DNA from: Candidatus Uhrbacteria bacterium
Lineage (GTDB): Bacteria > Patescibacteriota > Patescibacteriia > JACQRZ01
Direction of reading: 5' to 3'
Assembly (NCBI GenBank): GCA_016186045.1
Contig: JACPMJ010000008.1
Coordinates: 1-37,408, forward strand
Length of the DNA stretch: 37,408 nt
Under the pieces are notes generated by a model. The model had not been told where the DNA came from, ran no database searches, and saw nothing but the letters and a program-made list of their open reading frames with translations. Positions 8,358-33,653 of this stretch are shown here, piece by piece. A program made the position numbers and the translations under genes. Every line of letters begins with the position of its first letter. Position 1 is the first letter of the stretch.

Positions 8358-9035
8358 TCAAAATAGCATATCTATGCTACTAGTTATTCCCAAAGCCGTG
8401 AAGTGGGAAAAAAACATATCCCAGTTCCCGCCGAAGGCCATACCGGCAGATGTATCACCGCAATATTTAGTACCAATATAAGATTGTCTATCTATATCGT
8501 AAACAATCTCTGCCCAAAAATACCGTTTAATATCTACGTTGTTATAGTATTTCATTTTTTTCTTAACTCCTTCCCATGTAAAGGTTGAAAGGTCAGGCTC
8601 ATATACAGATGTTACGTATCTTTCCACGTTATTATCATTAATGGTTACGGCGCCAAATGCGATATTAAACGGAAAATTATTCAGTTCCGGACGGTTAGGA
8701 ATTTCTAAACGTTTAGGAACAAACATAATTTTTTTATCCGAAAAACGCTCATAAAAAGCAACAGTAACATATGATTCAGTTTCGAGTTTAACTTTCTTTA
8801 TTGCTTCAGACATCATCTTCTCCATTCTCTCATTCTGGATAACACTGTACCCATACACTCTATGCCAAAAATCATCTTTATGTTTTAGTCCTAATGTCAC
8901 GCAGTAATCTATGCTTACTCCAATCGCCAATCCGAGAGAGTGATATTTATATCTATCTTTCTCTTCTAATTCGTAAATTTCTTTTTCTTCTTTATTGCCA
9001 CCATCGGTAACGTGATTGATCTTTATTGTGTTCAT
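8358..9035 (-). CDS. Unknown protein (225 aa) under SAM-I riboswitch control
   Basis: I do not recognise this family. The protein has no signal peptide, no clear membrane span and no methyltransferase, methionine-synthesis or transporter motif. It is rich in Tyr, Phe, Trp and charged residues, with a glycine-rich stretch CGDTSAGMAFGGNW near the C-terminus. The frame is open to an ATG at 9074, but that codon lies in the loop of the riboswitch terminator. The ATG at 9033-9035, just after the T-tract, is therefore the likely start. The gene has its own promoter, S-box leader and terminator. By established S-box logic it should be expressed when S-adenosylmethionine is low, pointing to a role in methionine/SAM supply or use; that is inference from the leader alone. 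Confidence 0.8.
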   Translation of the reverse strand: MNTIKINHVTDGGNKEEKEIYELEEKDRYKYHSLGLAIGVSIDYCVTLGLKHKDDFWHRVYGYSVIQNERMEKMMSEAIKKVKLETESYVTVAFYERFSDKKIMFVPKRLEIPNRPELNNFPFNIAFGAVTINDNNVERYVTSVYEPDLSTFTWEGVKKKMKYYNNVDIKRYFWAEIVYDIDRQSYIGTKYCGDTSAGMAFGGNWDMFFSHFTALGITSSIDMLF

Positions 9036-9045
9036 AATTTTATCG

Positions 9046-9085
9046 TTAAAAATAAAAAACTCTTTCCCGAACATAAAGAAAGAGT
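9046..9085 (-). terminator. Riboswitch expression platform: regulated intrinsic terminator
   Basis: On the minus strand, ACTCTTTC (9078-9085) pairs with GAAAGAGT (9059-9066), followed by a T-rich tract (9046-9058). The competing antiterminator pairs GAAAGA at 9097-9102, next to the P1 3' strand, with TCTTTC at 9078-9083 of the terminator stem. SAM binding would stabilise P1 and favour termination. Confidence 0.85.
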
Positions 9086-9093
9086 GACGACCA

Positions 9094-9190
9094 TTATCTT
9101 TCCCCTGTTGGGGCTGGACTTAGCACCTTCTCGTTTCCGAGGGTTGCCGGTGGGTCATTGAGCCAGTTGCTCTCGCCACGCTCTTGATAA
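9094..9190 (-). promoter_or_regulatory. SAM-I (S-box) riboswitch aptamer
   Basis: Read on the minus strand, the S-box signatures occur in order. P1 is TTATC (9186-9190) pairing with GATAA (9094-9098). AAGAG follows directly, then the kink-turn region with CTGGCTCAATGA, then CCGGCAACC. The P3 hairpin has a GAAA tetraloop closed by CTCG/CGAG, followed by GGTGCTAAGTCC. P4 is CCCC-AACA-GGGG (9102-9113), leading into GAAAGATAA. This matches the SAM-I consensus throughout, including GCTAAxTCC and the tail that re-forms P1. Confidence 0.95.
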
Positions 9191-9212
9191 CTAACTATTC
9201 AATTGTAATTTT

Positions 9213-9241
9213 ATTATAGCCGATTATGTTTTATTAGTCAA
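9213..9241 (-). promoter_or_regulatory. Promoter of the SAM riboswitch transcript
   Basis: On the minus strand, TTGACT (9236-9241) and consensus TATAAT (9213-9218) are separated by 17 bases. Transcription should start about 15-20 bases before the aptamer. Confidence 0.85.
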
Positions 9242-29707: not shown

Positions 29708-30241
29708 ATGAAAAAAATCACGTTGCATTCTTTTTTTGCACTCTGGATATGCGCTCTTTTTTTTATTTCCGCGACAGGAGCAGGCGCGCAAGGAGACATC
29801 CGGTCAAGCAGCCAGATCCCGGATCTCAAACTACAAATACCCATTGACAAGATCATCGGCGCCGGCAATACCCAGCTCCAATCCAGCGCCACTACGCCAC
29901 ATCCAAACGCGCGCCTTCCAGTGGGCAAACTCTCACAAATCGCAGGAAATGAACTCGCACAAGGAGGCGGACTGGGTACGTATGTTTCTGTACTTTCTCA
30001 ATGGCTTGTGGGCGCCATTTCACTGCTCGCGGTGATCTTTCTCATGGCTGGCGGCATTGTCTGGCTGACTGCGGCTGGAAATTCGCAACAAGTAAATTTC
30101 GCAAAAAAACTTATCACAGATACTCTCGTGGCGCTTCTCATTACTTTGTCAATATACATTATTCTTTCAACAATCAGTAAAAATCTTGTGGAGTTGCGGC
30201 TTCTCGCACCAGGAGGAATATCCACTGTGCAGAAAAAATAA
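29708..30241 (+). CDS. VirB2/TrbC-like two-helix protein, array member 1
   Basis: 177 aa. It has a signal peptide (1-27, cleavage likely after AGA), the LQIPID motif (42-47), and a spacer of about 50 residues longer than in the other members. The hairpin follows: helix 1 about 99-122 (WLVGAISLLAVIFLMAGGIVWLTA), a basic loop with FAKKLITD, and helix 2 about 138-157. The tail is short and ends STVQKK, as in member 2. Size and topology match VirB2/TrbC pilins (two helices, both ends outside after cleavage), which polymerise into conjugative pili. Whether this one polymerises is unknown. It is the first of five tandem homologues. Confidence 0.85.
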   Translation: MKKITLHSFFALWICALFFISATGAGAQGDIRSSSQIPDLKLQIPIDKIIGAGNTQLQSSATTPHPNARLPVGKLSQIAGNELAQGGGLGTYVSVLSQWLVGAISLLAVIFLMAGGIVWLTAAGNSQQVNFAKKLITDTLVALLITLSIYIILSTISKNLVELRLLAPGGISTVQKK

Positions 30242-30255
30242 TTTTCTTAAAAACC

Positions 30256-30693
30256 ATGGCACATAAAAATAAAAAAGGTACATATACTATTCCTGTTCTT
30301 TTTTTCGCGATCTGTTTTTTATTTTTTCTTCATACATCTTATGCGCTTGCCCAAGTAAAACTCCAAATACCGGTAGATAAGCTTGCGGAAGTCTCACAGG
30401 CGGAAATGAATCAAGGCAAAGGCATCATAGTATACTTAGTGGCAATCTATACATGGCTTGTGGGAGTCATCTCTCTACTCGCGGTGATCTTTCTCATGGT
30501 TGGCGGACTTATCTGGCTCACGGCGCGAGGATCACAAAAACAACTGGGGTTTGCAAAAAAACTTATTTTGGATTCGCTTTGGGGTCTTGGGATTGCTTTG
30601 GGATCTTTTTTGTTTCTTTCCGCTATTAATCCAAATCTTGTAAAATTTGGTGACATTACATTGGAGAAAACATCTACCGTACAGAAAAAATAA
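30256..30693 (+). CDS. VirB2/TrbC-like two-helix protein, array member 2
   Basis: 145 aa, the most pilin-like member. It has a signal peptide (1-32, ending ALA), then VKLQIPVDK and a short spacer. Helix 1 (about 66-90) contains WLVGVISLLAVIFLMVGGLIWLTA, the basic loop is RGSQKQLGFAKKLILD, and helix 2 (about 105-123) is followed by INPNLVKF. The tail ends STVQKK. Fifty-five bases in the loop region are nearly identical to member 3, which points to a recent duplication or gene conversion. It lies 14 bases after member 1. It could be the structural subunit that the longer, hydrolase-bearing members join. Confidence 0.87.
   Translation: MAHKNKKGTYTIPVLFFAICFLFFLHTSYALAQVKLQIPVDKLAEVSQAEMNQGKGIIVYLVAIYTWLVGVISLLAVIFLMVGGLIWLTARGSQKQLGFAKKLILDSLWGLGIALGSFLFLSAINPNLVKFGDITLEKTSTVQKK
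30512..30566 (+). repeat. 55-bp direct repeat, copy 1 (in array member 2)
   Basis: 54 of 55 bases match the copy at 30971-31025. The repeat encodes WLTARGSQKQLGFAKKL, the end of helix 1 and the cytoplasmic loop. Confidence 0.9.
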
Positions 30694-30711
30694 TCTTACT
30701 CCTTACCTATC

Positions 30712-31749
30712 ATGCGTTCCATAAGAAACATACTCCTTCTTGCCTGTATTCCCTTCATGATTGTTTGGGGGATATTATTCATGCCGCTCATTCCCACTTT
30801 TGCCCAAGAGGTGCGGCTTCAGATTCCCATTCCGGGATTGAATGCTTCAATAAAGGCGTGCGAAGGCGCGCTGTGCTTTGGCGTTGCGCAATATATTGTC
30901 GCAATCGCGAAGTGGCTCGTGGGCGTCATTTCATTGCTCGCAGTGATTTTTATTATGGTTGGCGGTATCGTCTGGCTCACGGCGCGAGGATCGCAAAAAC
31001 AACTGGGGTTTGCAAAAAAACTTATCAAAGATTCTTTCGTAGGACTTGGGATTGCCATAGGATCATATTTTATACTCTTCATGATAAATCCGAATCTGGT
31101 GAACTTTGCGGGGTTTGGTGTGGAGAAGATTGAAGGAATTGATTTTCAGCTTCCAGAGGCAAATCCCACAGATATTCAAGATGGTGGAGATAGTAATGAA
31201 AAAGCTAAAATACCTACAAACTTATCCTCAAACAGCATTTATTGCCCAAAATCAGGAGGCGCTAAAGAATTTGAAAAAATTATCAAAAGTTTTAAAGGCA
31301 AGGTAGCGTATCGATTCGGCGGAAAAGGTGGCTCTCCACCATATAAAGAAACAAATCCTGATTATATGAAGTATAATACTTACTGTCCTCCTGGTAATGA
31401 ATGTTTTGATTGCTCTGGATTTGTAAATATTGTTTTTTTATGTGCCGGACTTCAGTCACCTGGTGGAGGTACAGACGATATTTTTTCAGGTACTGAAAAA
31501 ATTATTTCTTGGGACGTCGCAAAACAAACGATCAATGACAAAGAACTTAAACCTGGCGATCTTATCGGTTATCTAAAAAGTGAAACAACGCATCCGGCCG
31601 GTCATGTACTTTTATATGCTGGGGGTGGTCTTTTTATCCAAACAACAAGCTCAGGTGGGCATCCAGGTCGCCAACCAGGCGCAAATCCAAAACAGAGTTC
31701 GATGTCTCATGTGCCCATGAAAGATTACAAACACATAAAGCGCTTATGA
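30712..31749 (+). CDS. VirB2/TrbC-like hairpin fused to an NlpC/P60 endopeptidase, array member 3
   Basis: 345 aa. It has a signal peptide (1-31, ending TFA), VRLQIPI (35-41), a Cys pair (C50, C55), helix 1 (about 68-91), a basic loop, helix 2 (about 108-124) and INPNLVNF. A polar linker (about 140-195) leads to an NlpC/P60 domain: AYRFGGKG (199-206), catalytic Cys234 in DCSGF, and His298 in GHVLLYAGGG. Such enzymes cleave D-Glu-gamma-diaminoacyl bonds in peptidoglycan stems. By the positive-inside rule, the loop is cytoplasmic and the enzyme faces outward. The stop overlaps the next start (ATGA at 31746-31749), so the two are translationally coupled. Confidence 0.9.
   Translation: MRSIRNILLLACIPFMIVWGILFMPLIPTFAQEVRLQIPIPGLNASIKACEGALCFGVAQYIVAIAKWLVGVISLLAVIFIMVGGIVWLTARGSQKQLGFAKKLIKDSFVGLGIAIGSYFILFMINPNLVNFAGFGVEKIEGIDFQLPEANPTDIQDGGDSNEKAKIPTNLSSNSIYCPKSGGAKEFEKIIKSFKGKVAYRFGGKGGSPPYKETNPDYMKYNTYCPPGNECFDCSGFVNIVFLCAGLQSPGGGTDDIFSGTEKIISWDVAKQTINDKELKPGDLIGYLKSETTHPAGHVLLYAGGGLFIQTTSSGGHPGRQPGANPKQSSMSHVPMKDYKHIKRL
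30971..31025 (+). repeat. 55-bp direct repeat, copy 2 (in array member 3)
   Basis: Differs from the copy at 30512-30566 by a single A/G substitution, which is silent (both codons Ser). Confidence 0.9.
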
Positions 31750-32705
31750 AAAAATCTTTCAACAGGAAAATACTTGTCTTCTCTTTCTTCGTCATCCTCC
31801 TTGGTGTATTTGCCGTATTTCAATCTGCTCTTGCGCAAGATGTCACACTTCAAATTCCCCTATTAGGCATCAGTAAAATATCAGGTATTGGAGAATACGT
31901 TATTACTATCGCCAAATGGATTGTGGGAACATTGTCTTTACTCGCAGTGATTTTCATCATGGTCGGCGGACTTATCTGGCTCACGGCGCAAGGATCACGC
32001 AAACATGTTGAATTTGCAAAAAAACTTGTCACTGACTCCCTCTGGGGTCTCATACTCGCGCTCGGATCATACATGCTCCTCGCGGCTATCAGTCCATCAC
32101 TCGTGAATTTTGAAAAAATACATCTTGAGGAAATTACAAATATTGATTTTACTGTCAATCAACAAAAATTCTCAGAAGAATTTGAAAAATTAAATATCCC
32201 TCCCGGTCAAAAAACAAAAAGGGTTTGTAGCAATATCATGCGAAGCAGTCACCTTGCTACATACAAAAAAATAGGCGCGGAGCTTAATTTTCCGTGGGAA
32301 ATCCTTGCCGCGACTCATTATCGCGAATGTAATTTGGAAAATTTTATGGGATCCGAATGTGGAAATAATCAAATGCAATTTTGGAAAAGTACAAAATTCG
32401 GAACTGGATGTCTCCAATCATTTGAGGAAAACCTTCGATGCGCAATCACCAAACAAATCAGGGGTGAGCAGGGAATGAAAAATATTGTTACAGATACTAC
32501 AGACTCCAATCTTATCGGACGAATGTTCGTAAGATATAATGGAAGCAAGACATACGCCTATAACGACCCTGACCATGGTGAGACCGGTACGATAGGCGGA
32601 TGGATAGAACGTCCGGATGGTTCAAAATACAAAATGAAACAAACCACAGATTCGCGCCCCGGAGCGCTTCCCGTTTTTCTTGCGTTAAAAAATAATTGTC
32701 AATAA
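31746..32705 (+). CDS. VirB2/TrbC-like hairpin fused to a lysozyme/transglycosylase-like domain, array member 4
   Basis: 319 aa. It has a signal peptide (1-30, ending ALA), VTLQIPL, helix 1 (about 58-81), loop QGSRKHVEFAKKLVTD, helix 2 (about 99-115) and ISPSLVNF. The C-terminal domain (about 160-319) begins with CSNIMRSSHLATYKKIGAELNFPWEILAATHYRECN. FPWEILAATHYRE is the glutamate-containing helix of lysozyme-like muramidases/transglycosylases, with Glu194 as candidate acid, and FVRYNGS..AYNDP fits the later part of that fold. Seven Cys in this domain suggest disulfides and an oxidising outer location. The expected bond is MurNAc-GlcNAc. The exact family is less certain than for members 3 and 5. 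Confidence 0.82.
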   Translation: MKKSFNRKILVFSFFVILLGVFAVFQSALAQDVTLQIPLLGISKISGIGEYVITIAKWIVGTLSLLAVIFIMVGGLIWLTAQGSRKHVEFAKKLVTDSLWGLILALGSYMLLAAISPSLVNFEKIHLEEITNIDFTVNQQKFSEEFEKLNIPPGQKTKRVCSNIMRSSHLATYKKIGAELNFPWEILAATHYRECNLENFMGSECGNNQMQFWKSTKFGTGCLQSFEENLRCAITKQIRGEQGMKNIVTDTTDSNLIGRMFVRYNGSKTYAYNDPDHGETGTIGGWIERPDGSKYKMKQTTDSRPGALPVFLALKNNCQ

Positions 32706-32714
32706 ACCCGACGT

Positions 32715-33653
32715 ATGAACGGATTCAGAAAATTTTTTTCCACTTTCTTAGTTGCAAGTATTTTTTATGTTTTTCTTATCTCCTCTCTTCCTGTTTTCGC
32801 CCAATCCGTGACACTGCAAATCCCTATTGGAGAGACGAAGAGCGTCACCGTCTGTTCTGGCGGACTCTGTCACGGCATCGCGCTCTATATCGTGGAATTT
32901 GCAAAATGGCTTGTGGGCACAATTTCGCTTGCCGCGGTCATTGCCATCATGTTCGGCGGCATTGTCTTGCTTACCTCGCGGGCAAATCAAAACCAGCTCG
33001 CATTTGCAAAAAAACTTATCAGTGATTCGCTGATTGGGCTGGGAATTACGATCGGATCATATCTCCTCCTTTCGGTTATCAGTCCGGATTTGATTAATTT
33101 CAAAAATTTAGCACTCGATACAATACAAACCATCGGTTTTGAACTGGATGTAACAGCTGAACAATATGCGGTACCTTCTGGTACTTCTGCCGGAAAAGTG
33201 AATCTTGGCGCGGCAAATTCCGGAGATCTTGTGAAATATGTGCCTCATACCAATCTTAGCACACGAGCGACAGGTCAACTGCGGCAATCTACTGCCGAAG
33301 TTCTTCGTAAGGCAGCAGATATTTGCGCAAAAAAAGGAAAAAAAATTATCGTAGGAAGCGATTTTCGAAGTTTTGACGGTCAAGTCGCGGCATATAAAAG
33401 ATATTTAGCCGGGGGGAATCTCGCATGCAACCCGGGAACCGACCCAAAGCATGTGAGATGTCCGCACACGTCAGGCCAAGCTGTTGACCTTGATACTTCC
33501 GCTCACTGTCAAGGCAGAAAACCAGATCCTGTCACCGCTCAATGTATGAAAGAAGCAGGCTTTGACTGTGTTCTTATGAATGGCGGAGAATGTTGGCATT
33601 ATGAATACCCATCACTTTCGGGAGCATGTGTTGACCCTGCAAAATATTTTTGA
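32715..33653 (+). CDS. VirB2/TrbC-like hairpin fused to an M15 (VanY-like) peptidase, array member 5
   Basis: 312 aa. It has a signal peptide (1-29, ending VFA), VTLQIPIG, a Cys pair (C47, C52) matching member 3, helix 1 (about 66-88), loop RANQNQLAFAKKLISD, helix 2 (about 107-122) and ISPDLINF. A linker leads to an M15-type zinc peptidase: SDFRS (215-219, equivalent of SGYRS), HTSGQAVDLD with H251 and D258, and CWHYEY with H295. These are the three zinc ligands of VanY/DacY-type D,D- or L,D-carboxypeptidases acting on peptidoglycan stems. This hairpin is the most diverged of the five. The stop is 6 bases before radA. Confidence 0.9.
   Translation: MNGFRKFFSTFLVASIFYVFLISSLPVFAQSVTLQIPIGETKSVTVCSGGLCHGIALYIVEFAKWLVGTISLAAVIAIMFGGIVLLTSRANQNQLAFAKKLISDSLIGLGITIGSYLLLSVISPDLINFKNLALDTIQTIGFELDVTAEQYAVPSGTSAGKVNLGAANSGDLVKYVPHTNLSTRATGQLRQSTAEVLRKAADICAKKGKKIIVGSDFRSFDGQVAAYKRYLAGGNLACNPGTDPKHVRCPHTSGQAVDLDTSAHCQGRKPDPVTAQCMKEAGFDCVLMNGGECWHYEYPSLSGACVDPAKYF

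Follow-up and report, generated by a model that had tools for sequence, protein, structure and literature searches.

Riboswitches of the SAM-I (S-box) class, RF00162, are known to control genes for the biosynthesis or transport of methionine and SAM. In the textbook S-box antiterminator the J4/1-P1 3' strand pairs with the 5' arm of the terminator. Within Patescibacteria the closest counterpart of the locus studied here is the S-box that controls metK; no relevant paper came up when the literature was searched for riboswitches or SAM in this group. The present study deals with an S-box unit in a window (the whole stretch of DNA that was analysed, 37,408 nucleotides) from a Candidatus Uhrbacteria genome. 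With RF00162 riboswitches this unit shares a covariance match over the full length, the expected SAM contacts (all invariant), a terminator platform linked to P1 and a sigma-70 promoter, and with the S-box-controlled metK of Patescibacteria it shares the aptamer class and the layout of the platform. On the other hand its target is a soluble protein of no recognised family, without similarity to MetK, in a genome in which no metK was found. One contig carries a gene for one module of this protein, the C-module, as the second gene of an S-box-controlled metK operon.

All elements of the unit at 8358-9241 lie on the minus strand and form one compact transcription unit (Table 1), preceded on the same strand by a tRNA gene at 9354-9271. 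The reading frame of the protein, P0001, runs from an ATG at 9035 to a stop codon at 8358-8360 and encodes 225 aa. An alternative longer frame from an ATG at 9074 would start inside the terminator and is therefore unlikely. The hairpin at 9085-9059 is the sole terminator-like site of the region; the palindrome at the 3' end of the gene, together with the TTTT behind it, reads as a possible weak terminator. The assembly holding the window is a draft of 928 kb in 32 contigs, and only one S-box was detected in the whole of it with RF00162. Elsewhere in the window, at 29708-33653, five consecutive genes encode similar N-terminal membrane segments (LQIPI...WLVGVISLLAVIFLMVGG), and three of the five have extra C-terminal domains which by eye are NlpC/P60-like, lysozyme-like and peptidase-like.

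Table 1. Features of the S-box unit in the window, and loci of the cysteine-rich small protein described in the text
Feature	Position	Strand	Evidence
Sigma-70-type promoter, TTGACT-17 nt-TATAAT	9213..9241	-	Consensus scan, 11/12 matches, best of region
SAM-I (S-box) aptamer, complete	9091..9193	-	RF00162, 67.6 bits, E 7.6e-14
Intrinsic terminator hairpin, then T-run	9059..9085	-	10-bp stem, loop 7; ACTCTTTC-loop-GAAAGAGT
P0001, 225-aa S-box-controlled protein, stop included	8358..9035	-	Translation; homologues in 16 other loci
N-module, aa 1-100	8736..9035	-	Alignment A6, profile search, AlphaFold pLDDT 82
C-module, aa 101-225 (conserved ~107-217)	8361..8735	-	Alignment A5, AlphaFold model
Palindrome TAGCATAGATATGCTA then TTTT, 3' end of P0001 gene	8364..8379	-	Sequence reading
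Cysteine-rich small protein loci	L003 181-453; L105 2711-2983; L112 2398-2691; L029 1685-1978

The first-pass annotation of this stretch had proposed a promoter and a SAM-I riboswitch, and both are real. RF00162 covers 9193-9091 end to end (model positions 1-108) and its score lies well over the gathering score of 44.4 bits, while the promoter agrees with the consensus as listed in Table 1. In an alignment of 19 sequences the expected SAM-contact residues are invariant in the window and in all sister aptamers. These are the UAU of P1, the G of CAAGAG, the CA of GGCAACC, the U of GGUGC and the AU of GAU in P1, which we take to be the contacting residues from the T. tengcongensis structure. When the full leader was folded, the terminator was present in the minimum-free-energy structure. 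In an RNA ending before the 3' arm of the terminator, its 5' arm was predicted to pair with the 5' side of the aptamer, and such re-pairing is the mutually exclusive arrangement that an attenuator needs. The same annotation had claimed a mutually exclusive terminator and antiterminator. The terminator was confirmed and the antiterminator stands in part: a competing pairing is predicted, and the simple duplex GAAAGA/UCUUUC is present but does not rise above shuffled sequences, 27 of 200 being equally good. Among the 16 leaders scored, the antiterminator duplex beats nearly all shuffles in 10 (at most 5 of 200 as good), and a hairpin with a U-rich tail is found in 15, although it is weak (<2 kcal/mol) in G224 and G109. 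The leader without a terminator is that of L109, where the start codon lies 7 nt behind the aptamer. From the layout of the leader and the known behaviour of S-boxes we infer that the gene would be switched off with SAM. The window RNA appears to be an ordinary, well-formed SAM-I riboswitch of an already known class; it is the target family that appears new.

The target had been described as belonging to no known family, and this could be upheld. P0001 gave no credible match in Pfam, NCBIfam, PADLOC or the PDB sequences, and PHROGs returned only weak matches to families of unknown function. The MetK domains PF00438, PF02772 and PF02773 are absent from P0001. Matches to a mevalonate-3-kinase C-domain (E 0.77; 0.03 for the protein of G109) and, for a sister protein, to JmjC (E 0.058) are far under the cut-off and were taken as chance. 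From the alignments, P0001 consists of two fused parts, an N-module (aa 1-100) and a C-module (about 101-220), and both are also encoded separately elsewhere. In G039, G258, G305 and G109 the N-module stands by itself or is joined to other domains, and the C-module is on its own in 11 other loci. Across both modules P0001 is 52% identical to the protein of L112, compared with 28-42% identity to other C-modules. The AlphaFold model has two domains and is confident (pLDDT 85), the packing of the domains being unsure at a pTM of 0.57. The N-module is modelled as an alpha/beta domain and the C-module as a largely antiparallel beta fold plus a C-terminal helix. In these features the C-module resembles calycin/lipocalin-like small beta-barrels, and in the fold search it matches generic barrels weakly; it has no sequence similarity to them, and its best match (Z 6.1, 93 residues, rmsd 4.2) falls among scores typical of unspecific matches. 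The N-module gave weak matches to the YdgH/DUF1471 fold (Z 4.5, 60 residues, rmsd 3.0) and to the dodecin type (Z 4.4, 58 residues, rmsd 4.1), but had no sequence match to either, and with a best Foldseek E of 0.45 these serve as a lead only. Fold scores in this unspecific range assign no function, nor do they indicate a new fold.

Whether homologues also sit behind S-boxes was a check proposed with the first-pass annotation, and the outcome was strongly positive. Homologues of P0001 were found in 8 other genomes among 380 genomes of the class, and in each of the 8 an RF00162 search of these genomes found an S-box immediately 5' of the homologue in the same orientation. A separate scan of genome_contigs gave 10 loci, all with an upstream RF00162 match over the gathering score; four of them are those of G205, G148, G115 and G224 (duplicates merged) and 6 are new. 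Their titles are Parcubacteria, Wolfebacteria, Moraniibacteriota, Peregrinibacteria, Kuenenbacteria and other Patescibacteria; two loci carry other titles, Lysobacteraceae and Gastranaerophilales, which may be binning errors. One further genome, G305, was added by a profile search with the N-module. After merging of duplicates, the gene lies behind a co-oriented S-box in 16 of 17 distinct loci including the window (15 of 16 further loci). Only G305 departs from this; it retains a terminator-like hairpin but has no detectable S-box or aptamer. In its contig, L129, this hairpin lies upstream of the N-module and a GACTACGCTCAGGAC-type repeat just upstream again, which could mark an insertion through which the S-box was lost. 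Since S-boxes occur in 104 of the 380 genomes, usually one in each, this adjacency is far beyond chance, although independence of the loci is not given, as a gene may have spread together with its leader. The flanking genes vary from locus to locus. Among the loci compared, the family is the largest group of S-box targets other than metK. A profile match in G075 was dismissed on reading its sequence as an antisense chance match, and those in G085, G107 and G231 (E about 0.005) were judged from their translations to be chance. In a phylum-wide sample of 379 genomes only the window copy was found. From the sequences, the target appears to be a modular protein family, apparently new, patchily distributed and almost always S-box-controlled, in Patescibacteria.

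At first reading it had been called unexpected that a CPR bacterium has a gene regulated by an S-box; the frequency in the class, 104 of 380 genomes, does not support this. About half of the S-box loci of the class lie before metK, which is the commonest target (49 loci by our count). Other targets are a methylenetetrahydrofolate reductase-like gene (L068), a class I methyltransferase (L072) and, from reading of the sequence, a C5 DNA methyltransferase (L081). In L104, from Wolfebacteria, an S-box is followed by metK and, after a gap of 20 nt, by a C-module gene; this operon favours a role of the family related to SAM. In G109 a DNA N6/N4 methyltransferase gene follows the N-module gene. There (L009/L054) the S-box is followed by an N-module protein with an extra N-terminal domain (KYQIFIDDNFHYMDGD...), the methyltransferase and a likely restriction gene. 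An HD-domain hydrolase lies 30 nt behind the S-box-controlled C-module gene of L107 (2774-4190), and a very similar HD gene is directly upstream of the S-box in L111. Many S-boxes of the class (e.g. L022, L026, L029, L050, L075, L080, L088, L089, L090, L101, L102) precede small proteins of no clear family, which differ from each other and several of which are cysteine-rich. One cysteine-rich small protein (CxxCG...CxC) recurs behind S-boxes, adjoining or fused with C- or N-modules (Table 1). Two complete SAM-I aptamers stand in tandem in G018 and G205 (L017 330-634, L018 1311-1616) before a small gene of no assigned family with a zinc-ribbon-like CPGCG motif, which in G018 lies behind another ORF; the tandem arrangement suggests a steeper response. 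Judging by these loci, the S-boxes of Patescibacteria seem to control far more than metK.

Pairs of homologues gave a dN/dS of about 0.15-0.2, with dS saturated for more distant pairs. The proteins are thus made and kept under purifying selection. The P0001 gene has a GC content of 0.351, as compared to 0.449 (sd 0.034) for 28 other genes of the window (z -2.9), and no copy is present in ten other genomes from its taxonomic family. By its GC content and its absence from these ten genomes the single-gene unit was probably acquired horizontally, as had been suggested earlier. The nearest relative of the gene is a fusion from Kuenenbacteria (52% identity; tree support 99/98). Decayed copies also exist: one in L109 is truncated and has an S-box of its own, and in G224 a broken C-module lies upstream of an intact fusion. 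In L109 (1948-2981, Peregrinibacteria) an S-box with the truncated C-module is followed by an antitoxin-like/PIN-like pair and then by a second S-box with an intact copy, which reads as a duplicated unit with an insertion between the copies. Duplicated and decayed copies, patchiness and the AT-rich window copy would fit horizontal spread of the S-box-gene unit. No homologues were found in phage records, plasmid records or viral contigs.

A search for metK with PF00438, the archaeal PF01941 and a CPR MetK query gave no match in the window genome (G000) or in G039, G148, G180, G205 and G224, whereas G109, G115 and G258, which also hold the family, possess metK. The window assembly is 91.6% complete and its metK could lie in the missing part. 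Absence of metK in 6 of 9 holders compares with absence in 16 of the 35 S-box-free genomes sampled, and is thus not special to holders of the family. Because no metK was found in the window genome or in 5 of the 8 other holders, the window riboswitch probably reads imported SAM and not SAM made by the cell. EamA was tried as a candidate SAM importer and was uninformative.

The locus would be a stand-alone transcription unit under a transcription-attenuating SAM-I riboswitch. With SAM plentiful the aptamer would close, the downstream terminator would form and the gene would be off; with SAM scarce an alternative pairing would capture the 5' arm of the terminator and a small soluble two-module protein would be made. 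This protein would represent an undescribed, patchy and probably horizontally spread family of Patescibacteria, whose N- and C-modules are found singly, as fusions or within operons. As the family has no annotated relative, its role is deduced from regulation alone, and our best guess is a soluble protein responding to scarcity of SAM or methionine. It would most likely be a small ligand- or partner-binding protein that helps bacteria which are mostly without MetK, and would depend on imported SAM, to economise on SAM or methionine or to salvage them. An attenuated stand-alone unit encoding such a scarcity-response protein is the best explanation of the locus as a whole, and we regard it as somewhat probable.

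The main rival is that S-box and gene form a mobile regulatory cassette, in which the protein is accessory cargo for host interaction, competition or defence and SAM serves as a proxy for the nutritional state of epibiont or host. The patchy distribution, the AT-rich insert adjoining a tRNA gene and the duplicated unit flanking a toxin-antitoxin-like pair in L109 would all suit such a cassette, as would the S-boxes with identical scores at two contig ends in G039, the DNA methyltransferase gene after the target in G109 and the many other unrelated small ORFs behind S-boxes of the class. It has to be set against this that a C-module gene follows metK in L104, that none of the 16 family members tested matches a PADLOC defence model and that the phage, plasmid and viral searches were empty. 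Mobile cargo is a serious possibility, though on balance we think it unlikely.

The S-box could also be a remnant of a metK operon that was lost, now acting on whichever gene happened to drift into place behind it, as metK is the commonest target in the class and was not found in this assembly. The association already contradicts such drift, with the same family behind S-boxes in 16 of 17 loci, in many lineages and between different flanks, and both the aptamer residues and the terminators are retained; a leftover is thus very improbable. A binning or assembly artefact, by which the unit would come from another organism, is if anything still more improbable. The deviating GC content of the gene and the draft state of the assembly might hint at it, but the unit sits within a contig of 37 kb, where its neighbours are ordinary chromosomal genes and a tRNA gene of the same orientation, and the contigs with homologues are likewise typical of Patescibacteria.

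For the scarcity-response reading there is a further, more speculative form, to which we give a rather low probability: the family could be dedicated to SAM starvation in SAM-auxotrophic epibionts, the riboswitch would monitor SAM taken up from the host and the protein would offer a new way to obtain, hold or spare SAM when the supply fails. Many genes of Patescibacteria are of unknown function and there are few handles on them, and a riboswitch names the controlling metabolite without prior annotation. Both the RNA (by SAM binding) and the protein (by its ligand and a SAM-starvation phenotype) are open to testing in vitro or in laboratory strains. A family that is almost always S-box-controlled, also where no metK was found, would give a directly testable entry to the handling of a cofactor by epibionts unable to make it.
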